Source of the DNA: an uncultured Candidatus Actinomarina sp.
GTDB taxonomy: Bacteria; Actinomycetota; Acidimicrobiia; Actinomarinales; Actinomarinaceae
Length of the DNA: 64,000 nt
Assembly: GCA_902615855.1 (NCBI GenBank)
Contig: CACMQN010000002.1
Coordinates: 1 to 64,000, forward strand
Direction: 5' to 3'
Shown here: positions 8,885 to 52,526 of the stretch, piece by piece
Numbering within the stretch: position 1 is the first letter of the stretch
How the letters are laid out: the number at the start of each line of letters is the position of its first letter
The notes under the pieces: generated by a model
The model's input: only the letters and a program-made list of their open reading frames with translations
What the model was told of the DNA's origin: nothing
Databases searched by the model: none
Translations under genes and position numbers: made by a program

Positions 8885-10027
8885 ATGAAAAAAGTACTAA
8901 TAATACACAATTTATATCGCAACTTTGGGGGCGAAGATTCTGCAATCAATGGTGAAGTAGAACTCTTATCTAAAAAATATCATGTAGATAAAATCTTATT
9001 TGATAATAAAAATAGATTAAATTTTTTTGACTTCTTAAATTTTGTTTTTATTTCAAATATTCAATCAAATAGACTTTTAAAAGATAAAATAAATAACTTT
9101 AAGCCAGACTATATTTACATTCACAATTTATGGTTTAAAGGATCATTAGGATTATTGAAAGTAATAAAAAATTATGATATTCCTTTAGTATTAAAAATTC
9201 ATAATTTTAGATATATTTGTGCGAATAGTTTCTTCTGTAAAGCTCATTTGGGTAAGAATAAATTTTGTCCTGCATGTGGTATGAAAAAAACTTTTATATT
9301 TAATAAATACTTTAAAGATTCTTACATTAAATCACTTTTTGTAATTCGATTTTCAAAGAAACTTTACATTACTTTAAAAAATATAAACTCAAACCTATTT
9401 TTATTAACTAAGCACCATAAAGATATCCTGATTGACAGAGGATTTGATAAACAAAAGCTTTTTGTATTACCAAATTTTGTTACTACTTCTACTGATAAAA
9501 ATATAAAGAGATATAAACAATTTTTATATGCTGGAAGGATTTCTGAAGAAAAAGGAGTCGAAGAGTTAATTAAATCTTTTTTATCTCTAAATTTAGAAGA
9601 TTATACATTGAAAATCATAGGCACAGGCCCGAAGCTCGAAATTTTACAAAAAAAATATAATAATAATAATAATTTAAGAATTGTTGGGTTTTTAGATAAT
9701 AAAGAAGTTATAAAGGAAATTCAAAAGTCGATAGCAGTTGTGTCAGCAACTAAGCTATTTGAAGGCCAACCAACTATTTTATGTGAAGCATCTTTAAATA
9801 GTATCCCTGTCATATTTCCGGATACCGGAGGTATAAAAGAGTTTTTACCAAAAAATTATCAATTTCTATTTGAACAATATAACTATAATAATCTTCAAAC
9901 AGTTATGAAAAAAATAATCAATTCTGATATAGAAAAAATAGGAAATGAAAATAAAGAATTTATAACTGGGTTACTTAACAAAGATAATTTATTAAATACT
10001 TTCACAAAAGCTATAAACAATAAATGA
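8885..10027 (+). CDS. GT4 glycosyltransferase
   Basis: 380 residues, GT-B. It begins KKVLIIHNLYRNFGGEDSAI with the glycine-rich acceptor loop, has a Cys cluster YICANSFFCKAHLGKNKFCPACG at about 110-135, then FLYAGRISEEKGVEELI near 218 and FEGQPTILCEASLNSIPVI with Ex7E near 295. The four-Cys insert is also seen in many glycan-cluster GT4 proteins and may bind zinc. It heads a tight run (10024, 10700, 11820, 13189), and its stop overlaps the next start as ATGA. Confidence 0.88.
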   Translation: MKKVLIIHNLYRNFGGEDSAINGEVELLSKKYHVDKILFDNKNRLNFFDFLNFVFISNIQSNRLLKDKINNFKPDYIYIHNLWFKGSLGLLKVIKNYDIPLVLKIHNFRYICANSFFCKAHLGKNKFCPACGMKKTFIFNKYFKDSYIKSLFVIRFSKKLYITLKNINSNLFLLTKHHKDILIDRGFDKQKLFVLPNFVTTSTDKNIKRYKQFLYAGRISEEKGVEELIKSFLSLNLEDYTLKIIGTGPKLEILQKKYNNNNNLRIVGFLDNKEVIKEIQKSIAVVSATKLFEGQPTILCEASLNSIPVIFPDTGGIKEFLPKNYQFLFEQYNYNNLQTVMKKIINSDIEKIGNENKEFITGLLNKDNLLNTFTKAINNK

Positions 10028-45545: not shown

Positions 45546-46154
45546 ATGTTCGATTATTACATTTTTGGTCGTGGTGAGTTGTGTATTTTTACCATCGATT
45601 ACTTAATAAAAAATGAAATGTCAGTAACATTCATTCCAGATCGTCCAGAACCAGAGTGGCAAGAATCAGTAGTAGATTTCTGTAGGGATAATAATGTAAA
45701 AATTGTAGAGTTTAATGAAATTAATAAAAATATTGTAAATAACTCTATCGGCATATCTGTCTATTTCAGAAAAATTTTTAAGAAAGACTTAATTAAACAA
45801 TTTAATTACTTTGTAAATTTACACAATGCTCCTTTGCCTAAATATAGAGGGGTCAATCCAATTAACTGGGCACTAAAAAACAAAGAACCTATACACGGTG
45901 TGACATTACATCACATCGATGAGGGAATTGATACAGGTGATATTATTGATCAAGAAATATTTGATATAAATGAAAATTTAGAAGTTATTGATGTTTACCG
46001 GTTATGCATAGACGCTGGAAAAAAAGTTATTGAGAGGTCATTGTTAAATATTGAATCAATAAATCCTTCAATTCAGGATGAAAGCAAATCGTCATATTAT
46101 TCAATGGATGATTTTGAAAAATTAGGAAATAGAAAGTATTTTACAAGAGATTAA
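45546..46154 (+). CDS. Sugar N-formyltransferase (formyl-THF type)
   Basis: 202 residues. VNLHNAPLPKYRGVNPINWAL has the N..H of the catalytic triad and the LPxYRG loop, and HGVTLHHIDEGIDTGDIID the catalytic Asp, as in methionyl-tRNA formyltransferase and in ArnA / FdtF-like sugar formyltransferases. Its short length and lack of the tRNA-binding C-terminus point to a sugar acceptor. It would transfer formyl from N10-formyl-tetrahydrofolate to the amino sugar that the 42522-44624 operon makes. I chose ATG 45546 over TTG 45540. Confidence 0.87.
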   Translation: MFDYYIFGRGELCIFTIDYLIKNEMSVTFIPDRPEPEWQESVVDFCRDNNVKIVEFNEINKNIVNNSIGISVYFRKIFKKDLIKQFNYFVNLHNAPLPKYRGVNPINWALKNKEPIHGVTLHHIDEGIDTGDIIDQEIFDINENLEVIDVYRLCIDAGKKVIERSLLNIESINPSIQDESKSSYYSMDDFEKLGNRKYFTRD

Positions 46155-46165
46155 TTTCTGTAAAA

Positions 46166-46219
46166 CCTTTGTGGATCCCCAAGGAATTGAACCTGTGACT
46201 TTTTCTTTGTAAAGAATCA
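46166..46219 (-). repeat. Degenerate tRNA-Val 3'-end copy (att remnant 1)
   Basis: The reverse strand reads TTTACAA, then AAAAAGTCACAGGTTCAA, then a T-arm that no longer pairs and GGGGATCCACAAAGG. It matches the anticodon loop, variable and T-arm region and the flank after the 3' end of the tRNA-Val at 52453-52526, in the same orientation. The first 30 bp have no tRNA 5' half; instead TTTAATG and TTCTT are shared with the copy at 50.7 kb. It marks the far end of the tRNA island. Confidence 0.6.
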
Positions 46220-46227
46220 TTAAATTT

Positions 46228-47631
46228 TTATTTGTCTTTTGATTGATTTAATTTGTAAGGATTGGGTGAGGGTGGACACCCCGGAGGACATTTAGGCTGA
46301 ACTGTTCTTGTTTGACCAGGAATAATTACAGATGTTCCAGCATCAACAAATGCAACAGACCATCCCCAGTTTTCTGGATCTTCAATAACTAGTTGCGTAT
46401 TTGAATTAACACCAAAACCTTCATAATACTGATACATATATCCCATACCTTTTCGTTTATTGATAAAGCTTGACTCTCGTTTGTTTCCATTATTCTCTGT
46501 AAAAATAAACTTTAAATTAACAGGAGACCCATTGGTTACAACTATGAAGTCAATTTTTGAGTTATCAGAGAAAGGTAAATCAAGTGTTGTATTGCCATGT
46601 CCATGTTGGTTAAATATATAATTATCTGTTTGAAACCCAAGGTCTGTGGATATTATTTCTTGTTTTGGATCCAGGCTAGCGTCTCTTTCGTCACCATATA
46701 AGACTACATCCAGGTACTCTCCTCCAAATGGATGTTCTTCTGGTCCGATATACCAACCCATCGAACTAGGGAGTCCTCTTCCCCTTGCCCAGTCGTTACC
46801 ATAACTTGTACTCTCCCAACCTTCTTTTGGATTTCTGTATAAATTCGAAAACTGTTCAACGACTTCTTCAGTAAAAATTGCTGGTGCCATTTCTTGTTCT
46901 TTACTTGTACCTCTTTTCTCCATAAGGGCAAAAGCAATATGGCTTGAGCCCTGCATGGTTCCAACCATCTCTTCCAGTGTTGGAACATACATATATCCCA
47001 AGATGTCACCTTTTTTAACAACTTGACCATTTTCTACAAGAAGATAATCTCTGAAGAAGTTTTCATCCTCTTTAATAACATATCCTTCCATCTGATACAG
47101 AAAGCTCACAACATTACCATTGTTTTGTGCAAATTGTAATTTCAATAAGTAAGCAGAATGCCACCAGGGAGGGTCTGAGTCTGAATGGTCCACAACGTTA
47201 TAATAAGACCCATTTCCTTGTGCTAGCTCAATAATTCCATCTGCTACTGCGTAGAGTGCCGGAAAATCCGAGGGTTTTGTTGCCTCTCTCCATCTTGGAT
47301 CTGTATTTGAAAAATAAACTTGAGCATCATTATGTGGCCTTGGTGAGCGTTTACCTACATAAGGATGTCCAGCAATAATGTCTTCGAAATCAACAAAAAA
47401 TCTATCACTTTTATTTGTTATAAACTCTTTTATGTCTGGGAGTGTTTGTATTGTCAATCCGCTGTTTTGACTCTGGTTACCAGATTCTTGACTTGCTTTG
47501 GATTCTTGAGAACTTTTTTCACTTACTCCATTTTGTGACAATTCCTGATCTTGTTGTGGTTGTGTAGACATAGATTCCGGTGAGCCTCCACAAAAAGAAA
47601 TTAATAGGAAAAGAATTATAACTTTCTTCAT
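46228..47631 (-). CDS. Lipoprotein with degenerate M23 (LytM)-like domain
   Basis: 467 residues. Lipoprotein signal KKVIILFLLISFCGGS with Cys 15, then a Gln/Ser-rich linker to about residue 58. The central part follows the M23 order, HPYVGKRSPRPHNDAQVYF, VADGIIELAQGNGSYYNVVDHSD, VVKKGDILGYMYV and GSSHIAFAL, but the expected metal residues (H.G.D and H.H) are not all kept. It may be an inactive peptidoglycan-binding fold. A further beta-rich part with two Pro-rich Cys (PKCPPGCPPSPNP) ends the protein. It is the leftmost gene of the island. It lies convergent to the formyltransferase and away from the tRNA. Confidence 0.6.
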   Translation of the reverse strand: MKKVIILFLLISFCGGSPESMSTQPQQDQELSQNGVSEKSSQESKASQESGNQSQNSGLTIQTLPDIKEFITNKSDRFFVDFEDIIAGHPYVGKRSPRPHNDAQVYFSNTDPRWREATKPSDFPALYAVADGIIELAQGNGSYYNVVDHSDSDPPWWHSAYLLKLQFAQNNGNVVSFLYQMEGYVIKEDENFFRDYLLVENGQVVKKGDILGYMYVPTLEEMVGTMQGSSHIAFALMEKRGTSKEQEMAPAIFTEEVVEQFSNLYRNPKEGWESTSYGNDWARGRGLPSSMGWYIGPEEHPFGGEYLDVVLYGDERDASLDPKQEIISTDLGFQTDNYIFNQHGHGNTTLDLPFSDNSKIDFIVVTNGSPVNLKFIFTENNGNKRESSFINKRKGMGYMYQYYEGFGVNSNTQLVIEDPENWGWSVAFVDAGTSVIIPGQTRTVQPKCPPGCPPSPNPYKLNQSKDK

Positions 47632-47695
47632 ATAATTTTATTTTATTGAAAATAAAGGTGAATTGCAGGGATCAAGTAAGTAATTTACCTAACAA

Positions 47696-47863
47696 TTAAT
47701 TATTTTTAAAATAAACGAAGTAAGTTAAACGCAATCCAAGATACGCAAATATAGCAGCAAGAATTACTTGAGTCGGAGTGTAGTCAGAGCGAGTAAAGCT
47801 AAATACTTGCCAAGCTAAACCTAAAAGAACCAAAAAACCACCTAAGTTTTTTTTGTATTTCAC
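47696..47863 (-). CDS. Small two-helix membrane protein
   Basis: 55 residues from GTG 47863, with no ATG in frame. Two hydrophobic stretches, LGGFLVLLGLAWQVFSF and VILAAIFAYLGLRLTYFVYF, are split by a short RSDYTPTQ turn. The pattern fits a small inner-membrane protein. It fills most of the 292-bp space between two lipoprotein genes, and has no recognised family. No clear ribosome-binding site was seen. Short, so the call is moderate. Confidence 0.45.
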   Translation of the reverse strand: MKYKKNLGGFLVLLGLAWQVFSFTRSDYTPTQVILAAIFAYLGLRLTYFVYFKNN

Positions 47864-47923
47864 AATTTCATAATAATTTATAAAAAAAGTTTTTTTATAA
47901 AATGTGGGTCTGGGCTATGTATA

Positions 47924-48697
47924 TTAACTATTTTTACAATATTCGCTACTGTTGCCATCATTCCCAGATGGTGGTAAATTTTTAACTATTTCTTCGTCAT
48001 TAGGATTTAGCCAATCAAACCAACAAACTGCGTGTTTGCCAATTTTGTATTCAAACGATTTTACTAATTCTGAAGTTTTGCTTGCCTCATTTTCTTTTCT
48101 GTAGTCATATACACCAAAATCTACGAACACATTATTTAAAAATCCAACTTCGGTAGCTATCTCTTCACCTTTTAAAAACTCTATATTTTCTAAATTTGTT
48201 GTTCTTGTATCTCCTTCTTTTGGATCGGGAAGTTTATCTGCAATTTCTTGTAATTTTGGAGATAATACTCGTAAGTGGTCAAGCCTATAGTTCACATTGC
48301 AAGCTGTATTAAATTCAAACATATACTGAACTTCTCCAAAACTAAGATATCTACTACCAAGCACTAAAGAACTATCAATTGGAATCTTTACTGAAATCTT
48401 ATTGTTGTTATCACCTAACCCATCAAATCTAAATCCACCGTGTGGTTTAAAGTAATTACCTCTAATTTGTCCTGGATATAAAATTGAAGTAACCAAATTT
48501 AGATCAACAGGAGTGTCAAACAATAACTTTTCGGGGCAGTCAATATTTATTGATTGTGTAGTAGTTGTAGTCGGCGCAATAGTAGTTGTAGTCGGCGCAA
48601 TAGTAGTTGTAGTTGTTGTGTTAATTTCACTTGAAGATTCTTCACTGCCGCCACAAGCTATTACTAGAGCCAGTAATAAAAATATAATTTTTCTCAT
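47924..48697 (-). CDS. Thr-linker lipoprotein of unknown function
   Basis: 257 residues. Signal KIIFLLLALVIACGGS with Cys near 15, then EESSSEIN and a Thr-rich stretch TTTTTTIAPTTTTIAPTTTTT that spaces the mature domain from the membrane, as is usual in actinobacterial lipoproteins. The rest (from about residue 55) looks beta-rich with the charged pattern DPKEGDTRTTNLENI, and has four Cys in all, perhaps as disulphides in the mature part. No family recognised. Confidence 0.65.
   Translation of the reverse strand: MRKIIFLLLALVIACGGSEESSSEINTTTTTTIAPTTTTIAPTTTTTQSINIDCPEKLLFDTPVDLNLVTSILYPGQIRGNYFKPHGGFRFDGLGDNNNKISVKIPIDSSLVLGSRYLSFGEVQYMFEFNTACNVNYRLDHLRVLSPKLQEIADKLPDPKEGDTRTTNLENIEFLKGEEIATEVGFLNNVFVDFGVYDYRKENEASKTSELVKSFEYKIGKHAVCWFDWLNPNDEEIVKNLPPSGNDGNSSEYCKNS
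48560..48612 (-). repeat. 21-bp tandem repeat coding for IAPTTTT
   Basis: Two complete units and one partial 21-bp unit of AGTAGTTGTAGTCGGCGCAAT type, in frame within the lipoprotein gene. Each adds IAPTTTT to the linker, so length can change without a frameshift. Confidence 0.7.
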
Positions 48698-48780
48698 ATA
48701 TTGATAATTATTACAAATTTATCTTTCAAATGTAGATTGGATTTACATATAAATGTGTGTGTCCTTACAGTTATCATTTT

Positions 48781-50625
48781 TTAGGGAATTGGGAATTTTA
48801 ATTCCAATAATCCATCAGAAGCTTCATAAATATTATATCCTCCATCATCATTTGTAATATTTTCAATATACCAAGACACTTTTTGATCAAGTGTAGACCA
48901 AGCTTCTTCAGATGCTTTTTTATCAGTTACAAAAACTACTAATGTCGATACACTTCTTGTGTTTTTAAATTCTACTTTTCCATATAATTGTTCTAAATCT
49001 TCGACAGTATACGTAATTTTTTTATTTGCATTGAAACATATCGAAAACACATCTTCTTTACCTAAAGTTTTTTCACAATATTCATCAACTACTATAGGGT
49101 TACCTATAAAAGCATATAGATCACCCAGCTCACTACTAGGAAGCAACCCCATAATATATTTTTCAATGTTACCCATTTTGGTATCTGCACCATTTCCGTC
49201 TGCATAAAAATAATCTACTTGGTAATTATTACCTCCAAGTTCTTTAAGTGATTCATTGTTAAAACCTCCTAAAATTCCACCTGTTGAAAAACCAAAGTGT
49301 CCACTACCTGATCCTGGTTGATCAAAATAAACTTGATTATACGGAAGAATATCAGCTCCACTCCAAAGATGTAATAACTCATGCATTAGTGGAGCATTAA
49401 CATATGTAAAATCGCCCCAGTCATAAGTGGTAGTAGTTGAATTAAAAAACGCATTTAAGGATGGGAATATTAGATTTCCTCTTAATTTTCCATTTGAACC
49501 AAAACATGATGCAGATGAGTAAATAGGATAACCTAGCCCCTGTTCATTGTTGCTAATATCCTGTGCCATGCCACTATATGATCGAATATTGTCTAATCTG
49601 TTACCAACAAAAATTACCACTTCATATTCATCATTAATTTCTTTATATAAAGCATTCATTAATTTAGCCATATAGTTTCTGTTGTAGAATCCGATTGGAT
49701 TACTTGTCCAGTCGGGGTCAGAAAAATCGGTAAAAAACGAATCATAACCATCTTTGATAAAAAGTTCTATGTATTTTCCTGAAGGACTTTTTGAAAATAT
49801 AAAATCGTCATTACTGTTTTCATAATCATTATTTAAGTAAAAAGAAAGATCAGAGTTTCCTAAGTATATTTCTTTTAAGTTTTCTAAATTATCTAATAAG
49901 TCATAATCGTTACAGCTCCCTTCACTCTTTTGCGAATCAATGTATTTTAAATTTGATAATTTGTGGAGCATACTTGTATTTTTAAATCCAGCTGGAGTAA
50001 TAAGGTATTCCAATTTATCTAAAGGATATAAATGCTCAGCTCTTAATTGACTACAATAGTTGCAATTTAAATATCTTAACTCTGTTAGGTTTGACAAAAA
50101 CCTATAATCTCTTCCCCAAAATTTAAAACCTTGTCCTGCATCAAGATATTGCAAGCAAGTTAAATACTCCAATCCTTCATAACTTTGGATATTTTCATCA
50201 ATAGTTAATTTCTGTATGTTAAAAATATCATCACGCATTATTTCATCAAAAGACTTTAAAAATATTTTTTCAAAGTTAATTTTTGTATCAACAGAAAAAT
50301 TAGAATTTGGATTGAATGTTGAATTATTGATACAACTTTTATCCAGCTCAATTAGTTCAAAACTTTGACTCCATTCAAAACTAGGAAAACTATCTTTATC
50401 AAAAATAAATTTTGAATTAATATTTTCGAATTTATTTTTATCATCTGAGGTAGTAGCATCAGAAATATTTGTAGTCGTTGTAGATGAAGTAGTGGACGAT
50501 TCTTGAGTTGTAATAGTTGAATCTACACCAGTTGTAATAGTAGATGATACCAATGAATCATTATTTGAAACTTCACTTCCTCCACAAAATGAAAAAAACA
50601 TAATTACAACAGCTATTTTTTTCAT
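48781..50625 (-). CDS. Lipoprotein with LRR-like repeats and HExxH metalloprotease motif
   Basis: 614 residues. Signal KKIAVVIMFFSFCGGS with Cys near 14, a Ser/Thr linker to about 65, then a leucine-rich-repeat-like part (about 135-255) with repeated LxxLxxLxL such as LTELRYLNC, LSNLKYIDS and LENLKEIYL. A later domain contains APLMHELLHLWSGADIL (near 408-424), the HExxH zinc motif, after VNAPL. It reads as a surface zinc protease with an LRR-type binding region. TAAAAT (50632-50637) is 6 bp before the ATG. Confidence 0.65.
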   Translation of the reverse strand: MKKIAVVIMFFSFCGGSEVSNNDSLVSSTITTGVDSTITTQESSTTSSTTTTNISDATTSDDKNKFENINSKFIFDKDSFPSFEWSQSFELIELDKSCINNSTFNPNSNFSVDTKINFEKIFLKSFDEIMRDDIFNIQKLTIDENIQSYEGLEYLTCLQYLDAGQGFKFWGRDYRFLSNLTELRYLNCNYCSQLRAEHLYPLDKLEYLITPAGFKNTSMLHKLSNLKYIDSQKSEGSCNDYDLLDNLENLKEIYLGNSDLSFYLNNDYENSNDDFIFSKSPSGKYIELFIKDGYDSFFTDFSDPDWTSNPIGFYNRNYMAKLMNALYKEINDEYEVVIFVGNRLDNIRSYSGMAQDISNNEQGLGYPIYSSASCFGSNGKLRGNLIFPSLNAFFNSTTTTYDWGDFTYVNAPLMHELLHLWSGADILPYNQVYFDQPGSGSGHFGFSTGGILGGFNNESLKELGGNNYQVDYFYADGNGADTKMGNIEKYIMGLLPSSELGDLYAFIGNPIVVDEYCEKTLGKEDVFSICFNANKKITYTVEDLEQLYGKVEFKNTRSVSTLVVFVTDKKASEEAWSTLDQKVSWYIENITNDDGGYNIYEASDGLLELKFPIP

Positions 50626-50631
50626 AGTGTC

Positions 50632-50637
50632 ATTTTA
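50632..50637 (-). promoter_or_regulatory. -10 box of the LRR lipoprotein gene (leaderless)
   Basis: TAAAAT on the minus strand, ending 6 bp before ATG 50625. Confidence 0.45.
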
Positions 50638-50698
50638 TTGAAAATGTTCGGTTTTTGTTCGGTTGAGCTACATATATATGTAAAGATTTCTAAAAAAT

Positions 50699-50746
50699 CC
50701 TTGTGGGCGCTACAGGATTTGAACCTGTGACTTCTTCCTTGTAAGG
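50699..50746 (-). repeat. tRNA-Val 3'-end copy (att 2), 48 bp identical
   Basis: These 48 bp are identical to 52448-52495, that is, the anticodon loop to 3' end of the tRNA-Val gene plus five bases beyond. The similarity continues beyond it to about 50669 as a further near-identical flank (CATATATGTAAAGATTTCT). The 5' half of the tRNA is missing and replaced by TTTAATGGTTCTTT-like sequence also found at 46.2 kb. It is a displaced 3' end left by an integration. Confidence 0.85.
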
Positions 50747-50760
50747 AAAGAACCATTAAA

Positions 50761-50852
50761 TACTAAAGAGTATCAGAGAATATCAAATTATAGAGTCAAA
50801 GAACTCAAGCTCTATCAAAAAGATATCAGAGGTTATCAGAAAGTATCTAAAG
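50761..50852. repeat. 10-bp phased TATCA repeats
   Basis: TATC motifs start at 50771, 50781, 50813, 50824, 50834 and 50844, mostly 10 bp apart, in two groups; 50761 begins a further related TACTAAA unit. Phased sites of this kind often bind a recombinase or regulator on one face of the helix. They lie between the displaced att copy and the end of the nuclease gene, in a 260-bp space with no other gene. Confidence 0.55.
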
Positions 50853-50866
50853 TTTTTGAACATTTT

Positions 50867-50887
50867 GGTGTCTTTTAGGTGTCTTTT
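50867..50887. repeat. Cassette repeat copy 3 (GGTGTCTTT doublet)
   Basis: GGTGTCTTT, TA, GGTGTCTTTT: two 9-bp direct units. It sits at the end of the nuclease gene and matches the copies at 51828 and 52396. Confidence 0.8.
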
Positions 50888-51789
50888 TATATTTCAACCT
50901 TATTCATAATGAATTCAATGCTGTATTCATAAAAATCAATTGAGTCAATAGCTGAAAGGGCATTTTTAAGACCTGCGTCAGCTTGATGGGCAACAATGCA
51001 TCCTTTAACTGATTCATTTTCATCTGCTAAATTATTTTTTATATATCCCATATATCTTGAAGTCTGACCAACAACAACATCACTAGCAAGGTCTCTTTTC
51101 AATTCAATTACAAGATATTCGCTACCATCCTTACTTTTTGCCAATATATCTAAAGGACCAGTATTTGTTTGATATTGTCTTTCGTAAAAGTCATATTTTT
51201 CTGCAAATATAGTGCTACTCCAATTTCTAACAATATAATCTTCGAGATGTTTTTCAAGAGCAAATGAAGACATTGGTAAATTTGAAATAGTCGAAGGCTC
51301 ATTTATTTCAGATGAATCAACTTGTTTCAAAGGTGTTCCTGTAAATATATCTCCAATATCATCTACTAAAAGTTCAAATTCTATAGTTTTCCTGTCATCA
51401 CCCGGTATTGATACACCATCTTTATAACTTATTACATTGCCGACTCCTAGATAAATAAATTCTGGTTTACTGTCCCATCTAGCAAAAAAATGTGGAGTAA
51501 TTTCTTTGTCTATTATTTTTTTTATTTGCTTTTGTTCTGAATGTGCATTTGGTTTTCCATACCAAGTTATTATTTTTTTCTCATCATCGTATTTATTTGG
51601 AAAATCAAGACCTAATCTACCAGGAAATCCTATATTCATAAAAACTATTAAATTATCTTCCAATGGTGGTTTTAAACTTGTGTAGCCAGTATCCCAATTG
51701 CCTCCAGATGGTCTTCCAACGCCTGGATAACATATTTCTCCGATACTTCTTCTGGTGTACTTGGATCCTCTTTTAAAATCTAATTCCAT
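50887..51789 (-). CDS. NucS-like endonuclease with DUF3427-like N-terminal part
   Basis: 300 residues. The C-terminal half has the restriction-like core of the NucS/EndoMS type: NTGPLDILAKSKDGSEYLVIELKRDLASDVVVGQTSRYMGYIK, with catalytic D (PLDIL) and E-x-K (ELK) near 217-230, followed by VKGCIVAHQADAGLKNAL. The N-terminal half (LIVFMNIGFPG, KYDDEKKIITWYGKPNAHSEQKQIKKII, PHFFARWDSKPEFIYLG) resembles the DUF3427 region found with some restriction or helicase systems. It probably cuts DNA in defence or repair. GATACT is 7 bp before the ATG; a cassette repeat begins 39 bp upstream. Confidence 0.7.
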   Translation of the reverse strand: MELDFKRGSKYTRRSIGEICYPGVGRPSGGNWDTGYTSLKPPLEDNLIVFMNIGFPGRLGLDFPNKYDDEKKIITWYGKPNAHSEQKQIKKIIDKEITPHFFARWDSKPEFIYLGVGNVISYKDGVSIPGDDRKTIEFELLVDDIGDIFTGTPLKQVDSSEINEPSTISNLPMSSFALEKHLEDYIVRNWSSTIFAEKYDFYERQYQTNTGPLDILAKSKDGSEYLVIELKRDLASDVVVGQTSRYMGYIKNNLADENESVKGCIVAHQADAGLKNALSAIDSIDFYEYSIEFIMNKVEI

Positions 51790-51827
51790 AACTATAAGTA
51801 TCTTAGCAAATGAATATTTTGGTCATC

Positions 51828-51848
51828 GGTGTCTTTTAGGTGTCTTTT
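51828..51848. repeat. Cassette repeat copy 2 (GGTGTCTTT doublet)
   Basis: GGTGTCTTT, TA, GGTGTCTTTT, the same as copy 3. It starts 39 bp before the nuclease start codon and includes the last codons and stop of the next gene (minus strand, ends at 51836). Confidence 0.85.
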
Positions 51849-52357
51849 AAAATTTTTTGTGCCTGAGATCTCACAGCTTTTCTTTCATCATTCTTTAACT
51901 GTCTTGCGATACTTATAACCTTTGACTTCAATATTTCGTCTGAATTGGATAATTTTTCTAGAAGTTTTAAACCTTGAGCAAGTATCATCCAGTCTTTACT
52001 ATTTTCCACCCAACTCATTGCATTTTTACTAATAACTTTGTATTCTTTATCGTCAAAATATGAAATGAAATCATAATAAATTGTAATAAGCCCAAGTTTG
52101 ACTACATTATGTTCAGACTTAGAAAACTCATCTATGAATCTTTTTTTATTTTCAACAAAAATATGATTATCACCTTTTATTATTCTTTTTGTTGCATTCA
52201 TAGCTCTCATTGCAACTAAAGAATTGATAGAAAAAAAACATAAGAATAATTTATCAATTTCTTTTATATTGCTTTGAATATGTTCTACTACTTTTAATGT
52301 CTCTCCAAGTGAGTTTTGTTTTCCTTTGCTTAACTCAAATTCAAAATCTAATTCCAT
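51836..52357 (-). CDS. Helical protein, possible ARM/HEAT-like, unknown function
   Basis: 173 residues, helical throughout with an alternating pattern such as KAVRSQAQKILKD and KLGLITIYYDF, suggesting an ARM/HEAT-type solenoid. The start MELDFEF and the flank before it resemble those of the nuclease gene (MELDFKR), although the mature proteins do not match. The last codons (KDT) and stop are encoded by a cassette repeat. TATACA is 7 bp before the ATG. I cannot assign a function; a partner for the nuclease is possible. Confidence 0.55.
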   Translation of the reverse strand: MELDFEFELSKGKQNSLGETLKVVEHIQSNIKEIDKLFLCFFSINSLVAMRAMNATKRIIKGDNHIFVENKKRFIDEFSKSEHNVVKLGLITIYYDFISYFDDKEYKVISKNAMSWVENSKDWMILAQGLKLLEKLSNSDEILKSKVISIARQLKNDERKAVRSQAQKILKDT

Positions 52358-52395
52358 AACTAAATGTATATTACCAAATGAAACTCTACAGAAGT

Positions 52396-52416
52396 GGTGT
52401 CTATTAGGTGTCTTTT
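52396..52416. repeat. Cassette repeat copy 1 (GGTGTCTATTAGGTGTCTTTT)
   Basis: A third doublet of GGTGTCT units, one base different from the other two. It lies 39 bp before the start codon of the 52357 gene, the same distance as copy 2 from the nuclease start, and close to the tRNA gene. Confidence 0.8.
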
Positions 52417-52447
52417 GAGTACATATATGTAAAGATTTCTGAAAAAC

Positions 52448-52495
52448 CCTTGTGGGCGCTACAGGATTTGAACCTGTGACTTCTTCCTTGTAAGG
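52448..52495 (-). repeat. Intact attachment copy within tRNA-Val (att 3)
   Basis: 48 bp identical to 50699-50746. The copy spans the tRNA 3' half and five bases beyond the gene, and further similarity continues out to about 52420. It is the copy that keeps the tRNA functional. Confidence 0.85.
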
Positions 52496-52526
52496 GAAGC
52501 GCTCTGCCGGACTGAGCTAAGCGCCC
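52453..52526 (-). tRNA. tRNA-Val (UAC)
   Basis: The reverse strand gives a complete cloverleaf of 74 bases with discriminator A: acceptor GGGCGCT paired with AGCGCCC, D-arm GCTC/GAGC, anticodon stem CTTCC/GGAAG around the loop CTTACAA, so anticodon TAC, and T-stem ACAGG/CCTGT with TTCAAAT. No CCA is encoded. Its 3' half is repeated at 50.7 kb and, decayed, at 46.2 kb, so it is the integration site of the island. Confidence 0.93.

Follow-up and report, generated by a model that had tools for sequence, protein, structure and literature searches.

Intact units in the tRNA-Val arrays of Candidatus Actinomarina are gene cassettes bounded by ends that resemble a phage attachment site (attP), each with a pair of short repeats that is matched between its two ends and differs from one cassette to the next. 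We describe this organization in a 64,000-nucleotide stretch of an uncultured Candidatus Actinomarina sp. (contig CACMQN010000002.1, assembly GCA_902615855.1; hereafter the window), and we consider it likely that the array consists of non-autonomous attP-bearing cassettes that phage-type integrases with different arm specificities mobilize in trans. The window holds one intact tRNA-Val(TAC), the attachment target, identified by ARAGORN on the minus strand at 52452-52526, and two displaced copies of its 3′ end on the same strand. The 48 bp at 50699-50746 match 52448-52495 exactly by direct reading, and the homology of this second attachment (att) copy, which comprises the core, the tRNA 3′ half and the 3′ flank, extends to 77 nt at 96% identity (50674-50750 against 52423-52499). 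The third copy, at the far end of the array (46142-46219), is decayed, with 66% identity over 77 nt (46142-46218) and 81% over its best 59 nt (46154-46212). Both displaced copies have a non-tRNA 5′ flank in common (TTTAATGGTTCTT / TTTAATGATTCTT), and neither the open reading frames nor the Pfam domain matches of the window proteins revealed a recombinase between the tRNA-Val copies. A preliminary description of the window had already reported the three co-oriented copies, the different 5′ flank shared by two of them and the lack of a recombinase gene in either element, all of which our analysis bears out, but it had missed the attP-like arms with their end-matched, cassette-specific repeats as well as the defense cargo.

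Read along the tRNA strand, a cassette unit has the order core, tRNA 3′ half, 34-39 nt, right-arm repeat pair, cargo, matching pair, left arm and next core. The core is TTCTT(T/C)C-CTTACAA-GGAAGAA, with the anticodon stem as inverted half-sites and the anticodon loop as a 7-bp overlap; in the intact window gene it occupies 52481-52500 on the minus strand, around the loop CTTACAA at 52488-52494. Intact tRNA copies keep GCTTCC just left of the loop while displaced copies have the attP-type TTCTT(T/C)C, a distribution that strand exchange within the loop predicts. The arm pairs are direct repeats whose phase is always 11 bp, and their geometry is fixed, the right pair lying 34-39 nt past the tRNA end and the left pair starting 137-142 nt ahead of the next core. 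From the left pair to the core runs a conserved left arm, of which there are about three types. The motif of the pair varies by cassette: GACACC, GACACAC, CCGAAC, CCGCAC, CACCCAC, CACGCAC, CCCCAC, GACCCAC and CCCCTAC.

In 17 of the 18 units having both pairs, the pair matched between the two ends, and the single non-matching unit is a composite with a decayed core at its end. The end match averaged 18.6 of 20 positions, against 12.7 ± 0.7 after shuffling, a value that none of 20,000 shuffles reached, and it held in all 8 classes left by dereplication. A held-out unit from genome G064, fetched after the rule had been formed, showed a new motif, GACGCC, at both ends; the right arm of a second unit from this genome has a single motif copy. 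Arm windows totaling 2.4 kb contained 32 exact phased pairs, compared with 7 in 661 kb of other sequence, where such pairs are about 1000-fold rarer; five of the 7 correspond to junctions of fused cassettes, a relic of a cassette or the arms of a tRNA-Ile element. Fusions by loss of the core within the left arm were seen in G006 and G024. This arrangement, with 11-bp-phased pairs 34-39 nt after a tRNA end and about 140 nt before a core, offers a sequence signature for finding such cassettes elsewhere.

The array is not particular to the window genome but is a genus-wide hotspot. Using a 35-nt core pattern with at most 3 mismatches, and the reversed pattern as a control, we found the core in 37 of 41 genus genomes, 22 of which had at least two copies, and the control in none; with the core so widespread and the control absent, the tRNA-Val copies are not due to chance. 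A scan of genome contigs with the same 35-nt core returned almost only single-cell and metagenome assemblies of Candidatus Actinomarina (OCS155). We read forty loci around the core in genus genomes, and an array with different cargo recurs in about half of the 41 congeneric genomes. The cargo between core copies varies by genome, so that the three copies do not stand with the same genes in all relatives, and some cassettes recur. One of these carries a 173-amino-acid gene of family F16, present in the window genome and in G012, G019, G006 and G018, where it is first in line in four genomes and second in one; the unit measures 788 bp in both G012 and G019 and 786 bp in G018. These cassettes are 97-98% identical to the window copy, compared with 81-82% for the adjacent ribonucleotide reductase gene (NrdJ). 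Likewise, a type II restriction-modification (R-M) pair occupies the first position in G003 and the second in G008, and over 2,078 bp its two copies are 99.6% identical, whereas the NrdJ genes of these genomes are only 78.8% identical. Since cassette identity far exceeds core-gene identity, the cassettes have moved between species recently.

The other genes in cassettes and arrays include type II R-M (NgoPII-type) and type I R-M systems, an SNF2 helicase, a T5orf172 (GIY-YIG-like) protein of family PDC-S57, an HNH protein with weak similarity to PtuB and a TIR protein similar to ThsB, and the remaining cargoes include lipoproteins. Judging by these family assignments, a role in phage defense is likely for some of the cargoes. 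A cassette in G018 (L053:13291-15591) encodes an Hsp70-like protein beside a coiled-coil protein and a small protein, and is possibly an uncharacterized defense system.

The core of mycobacteriophage attP sites lies between pairs of 11-bp arm-type sites, whose sequences differ even between closely related integrases (PMC3203893). Because the layout here is alike, we read the repeat pairs as putative integrase arm sites. As a pair matches within a cassette and differs between cassettes, each cassette is probably directed at one kind of integrase, distinguished by its arm specificity, and the differing motifs would imply several helper specificities. Cassettes with complete, end-matched attP ends and no integrase gene are best explained if integrases supplied in trans act on them. 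A cassette comprises a right and a left arm with a single gene or a few genes between them, and in the mechanism that we propose, the arms of its circular form would flank a core made of the tRNA-Val anticodon stem-loop together with the 3′ half of the tRNA. A tyrosine integrase of the phage type, provided by a phage or another visiting element, would engage the arm-repeat pairs to either side of the core. Strand exchange in the CTTACAA anticodon loop would then integrate the cassette at the intact tRNA and restore the 3′ half of that gene from the cassette. Older cassettes would shift downstream together with their tRNA 3′ copies, and neighboring cassettes would fuse upon loss of the intervening core, as may have happened in window unit 1 (the 1.75-kb unit next to the tRNA gene). 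The host would likely benefit by being able to exchange its anti-phage and envelope genes quickly. More tentatively, and as a possibility that falls somewhat short of probable, these may be a class of minimal integrase-less cassettes that owe their mobility solely to an attP whose arms give each cassette its own address. Different visiting integrases would then move different defense genes into one shared tRNA site, in an integron-like exchange system whose recombinase is always external and whose specificity resides in the arms. Although mobile elements had been described as nearly absent from these genomes, genes are exchanged across species at one tRNA, and the end-matched, cassette-specific arms suggest parasitism of passing integrases through arm specificity. 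If this is true, the arrays would constitute a natural library of arm-site variants for the evolution of tyrosine integrase DNA specificity and would provide a testable answer to the source of the recombinase for integrase-less tRNA islands.

The window assembly encodes just two tyrosine recombinases, both XerC/XerD-like when checked by profile, and no serine recombinase was found in it or in 29 Actinomarina genomes. Across 42 genomes, the recombinases were XerC/XerD-like proteins and little else, the exceptions being one complete phage-type integrase in G034, of which G001 has a remnant, and a C-terminal integrase piece in G002. In G034, two tRNA-Ile(GAT) copies enclose a 5-kb element (L141:5843-10881, G034:C1) that encodes this integrase, a methyltransferase, a likely restriction enzyme and tRNA-Leu(TAA) and that has matched GTCAC repeat pairs at its two ends. 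On contig C54 of G001, a C-terminal remnant of the G034-type integrase lies beside the same flanking genes. Relatives of the two integrases were sought in IMG/VR, and none were found. Two core-bearing contigs filed under Flavobacteriaceae and Bacteroidia metagenome-assembled genomes (L130, PATA01000003.1; L134, JADHMR010000075.1) were rejected as helpers and regarded as misbinned because their sequence is of the Actinomarina type. A prophage has been described in the tRNA-Val of another Actinomarinales genome, AH-324-A03 (PMC7771536), and it is the obvious candidate for a helper.

Several observations weigh against mobilization in trans. No integrase specific for tRNA-Val, and no integrase-bearing element at tRNA-Val, was found in the 42 genomes, which are 51-94% complete, and no IMG/VR contig carried the core (as a 35-mer or 20-mer) or left arms of several types when searched with exact patterns only. 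The phage contig of the window genome was rejected as a helper, as it has neither an integrase nor the core. This contig (C11; L147, L148) is 29.7 kb long with 35.4% GC, encodes a terminase, a portal, an HK97-type capsid and tail genes, and is probably the published AG-919-G14 phage (29 kb, 35.5% GC; PMC7771536). Several cargoes are lipoproteins rather than defense genes, and F16 has no known function. In addition, homologous recombination between the conserved arms could also move cassettes.

This last point leads to the main rival explanation, that the units are fossil cassettes, once inserted by integrases, which homologous recombination now moves from strain to strain by way of the conserved arms, the tRNA copies and the flanks of the island. 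The homology is available, with left arms 87-91% identical over 130 bp between unrelated cassettes and tRNA copies of 77 nt; the whole sugar island around the tRNA is exchanged between strains, and no helper integrase was found. However, the same cassette occurs at 97-99.6% identity in a different order and with different neighbors, intact units keep their arms intact and end-matched where unused sites should decay, and intact and displaced copies differ by GCTTCC and TTCTT(T/C)C just left of the loop, as strand exchange in the loop would predict. We therefore regard fossil shuffling as unlikely, while giving it more weight than any other alternative. The integrase fragments in G001 and G002, the published tRNA-Val prophage (PMC7771536) and the plainly eroded second unit of the window would all fit units that are in-place remains of integrase-bearing prophages or islands reduced to their ends and a gene or two. 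Such remains would demand recurrent deletion with identical end points to give identical compact cassettes of the same size (788, 788 and 786 bp) in several species, and the recurrence of cassettes largely refutes this explanation, leaving it very improbable. Least probable of all, to the point of being scarcely credible, is movement by the host XerC/XerD proteins, as in Xer-dependent integrative elements. XerC/D-like proteins are indeed the sole recombinases in most genomes, but the core, formed by the anticodon stem-loop of the tRNA and having a 7-bp overlap, is not a dif-like site. Xer proteins also have no arm-binding domain, and the matched distant repeats would thus be left unexplained. 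Mobilization by integrases acting in trans remains our preferred reading, and the view in the preliminary description that elements accreted serially at the tRNA 3′ end and may depend on an integrase from elsewhere is supported to that extent.

The window tRNA-Val lies among glycosyltransferase, formyltransferase and nucleotide-sugar genes, inside the envelope-sugar island called fGI1 in the 2020 account of these organisms (PMC7771536). According to that account, tRNAs of fGI1 in Ca. Actinomarinales are entry sites for gene cassettes, and direct repeats of the tRNA mark these cassettes (Lopez-Perez et al. 2020, PMC7771536). The hotspot has thus been known in outline since 2020, and the arms and end-matched repeats are new relative to what that account describes (PMC7771536). 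The additive fGI1 cassettes are alike in organisms, sugar island, tRNA targets and tRNA-fragment direct repeats at their ends, whereas the main text of that work makes no mention of an integrase and does not describe arms, attP architecture or end-matched repeats (PMC7771536). The units seen here fit such cassettes in location, since they lie at a tRNA of the envelope-sugar island, and in ending with a direct repeat of a tRNA fragment.

As in cis-mobilizable elements (CIMEs), the window array is flanked by attL- and attR-like sites, and its units have no recombination or transfer genes of their own. CIMEs are defined as deletion derivatives of integrative and conjugative or integrative and mobilizable elements that move by accretion with a related integrase-bearing element; at tRNA-Val, no element with an integrase was seen in 42 genomes. 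The ssrA islands of Dehalococcoides, an example of CIMEs, are similar in forming tandem att-bounded units downstream of one RNA gene, in being integrase-less and in their presumed movement in trans or by accretion (PMC3146451). Unlike the units seen at tRNA-Val, none of which encodes a recombinase, 16 sister islands in Dehalococcoides encode a serine recombinase (PMC3146451), and the cassettes described here are mostly 0.7-5 kb and have cassette-specific arm pairs. In lambda/L5-type attP sites, the arm repeats are bound by the N-terminal domain of the integrase. Such sites (CrimD, Giles, L5) share the pairs of 11-bp repeats flanking a tRNA or tmRNA core on either side, and their specificity differs between related integrases (PMC3203893), but they adjoin an integrase gene, which the cassettes do not have. 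Integron cassettes and clusters of attC sites lacking integron integrases (CALINs) likewise form arrays of short gene cassettes without their recombinase; here, however, the site is a tRNA-Val 3′ half with long arms instead of attC, the integron integrase is absent, and the window genome has only Xer-like recombinases. Phage satellites usually carry an integrase. Tycheposons and the satellites known as phage-inducible chromosomal islands (PICIs) and phage-inducible chromosomal minimalist islands (PICMIs) resemble the cassettes in tRNA or site-specific insertion, marine hosts in some cases and dependence on a helper. PICIs and PICMIs, which are also defined by a packaging signal and by induction through a helper phage, as a rule have an integrase of their own, and the cassettes have no mobility gene. 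Described tycheposons carry a tyrosine recombinase (PMC10872708), and the cassettes carry none.

The preliminary description had counted two elements of about 1.75 kb and 4.5 kb, which is too few, as unit 1 appears to be two fused cassettes and unit 2 a composite. All features of both units are on the minus strand. In unit 1, the right-arm repeat pair AAAAGACACCTAATAGACACC (52396-52416) is followed by the 173-amino-acid F16 gene without known family (gene 1, 51836-52357), a repeat pair overlapping its stop at the cassette junction (51828-51848), gene 2 (50887-51789), the left-arm repeat pair AAAAGACACCTAAAAGACACC (50867-50887), which matches the right arm, and a conserved, attP-derived left arm with TGATACT-type repeats (50753-50847). 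The circular junction of this unit would read left arm TTTAGTATTTAATGG, core, tRNA 3′ half and AAAAGACACCTAATAGACACC. The pair at the end of gene 1 runs straight into the leader of gene 2, which is 88% identical to the leader of gene 1 over 43 nt. Because this layout of repeat pair and leader is the remainder expected from a deletion of the core between two repeat pairs, we infer that unit 1 consists of two single-gene cassettes fused exactly at 51828-51848. A stand-alone copy of the gene 2 cassette, sought as direct proof of the fusion, was not found. Gene 2, which occurs in the genus only in the window genome, encodes a NucS_C-type nuclease (Pfam, 1.5e-11) and matches PDC-S02 in PADLOC (2.8e-49) over residues 173-297, across the nuclease domain, making it a candidate defense protein of that family. 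The predicted structure of the F16 protein had a mean predicted local distance difference test score of 46 and was not used.

Unit 2 opens with a CCGAAC pair, AACCGAACAAAAACCGAACA (50645-50664), whose far-end partner is lost. Its cargo comprises three predicted lipoproteins, one with weak leucine-rich-repeat similarity (48781-50625), one with an 87% identical relative in G062 (47924-48697) and one with weak M23-type similarity that is common to G006 and G031 (46228-47631). Since it also holds the remnant of another right arm, CAGACCCACATTT (47900-47912), unit 2 is by its sequence an eroded composite of several older, decayed cassettes. The start of its first lipoprotein (50574-50625) and L050:6274-6330 share the right arm, leader and signal peptide (MKKIAVVIMFFSFCGGS) while the mature parts of the two lipoproteins differ, as if cargo had been swapped behind a constant expression head.

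No clean empty site was found within one species, the collections having one genome per species; the closest case is G028 and G023, in which both flanks align around 386 bp and 4.08 kb, respectively, and G028 retains cassette remnants. Core copies starting with GAGCGCTT or close variants were also seen away from the tRNA gene, downstream of the gene families F15-F6-F29 (L067, L075, L078 and L083) and at other loci (L072, L079 and L081). They hold a few more tRNA bases than the attP-derived copies, occur at a few conserved places in several species and look like secondary landing sites. At L062, the displaced tRNA 3′ half near position 8981 has a compensatory T-stem change from ACAGG/CCTGT to AGAGG/CCTCT, which suggests selection to restore a working tRNA.

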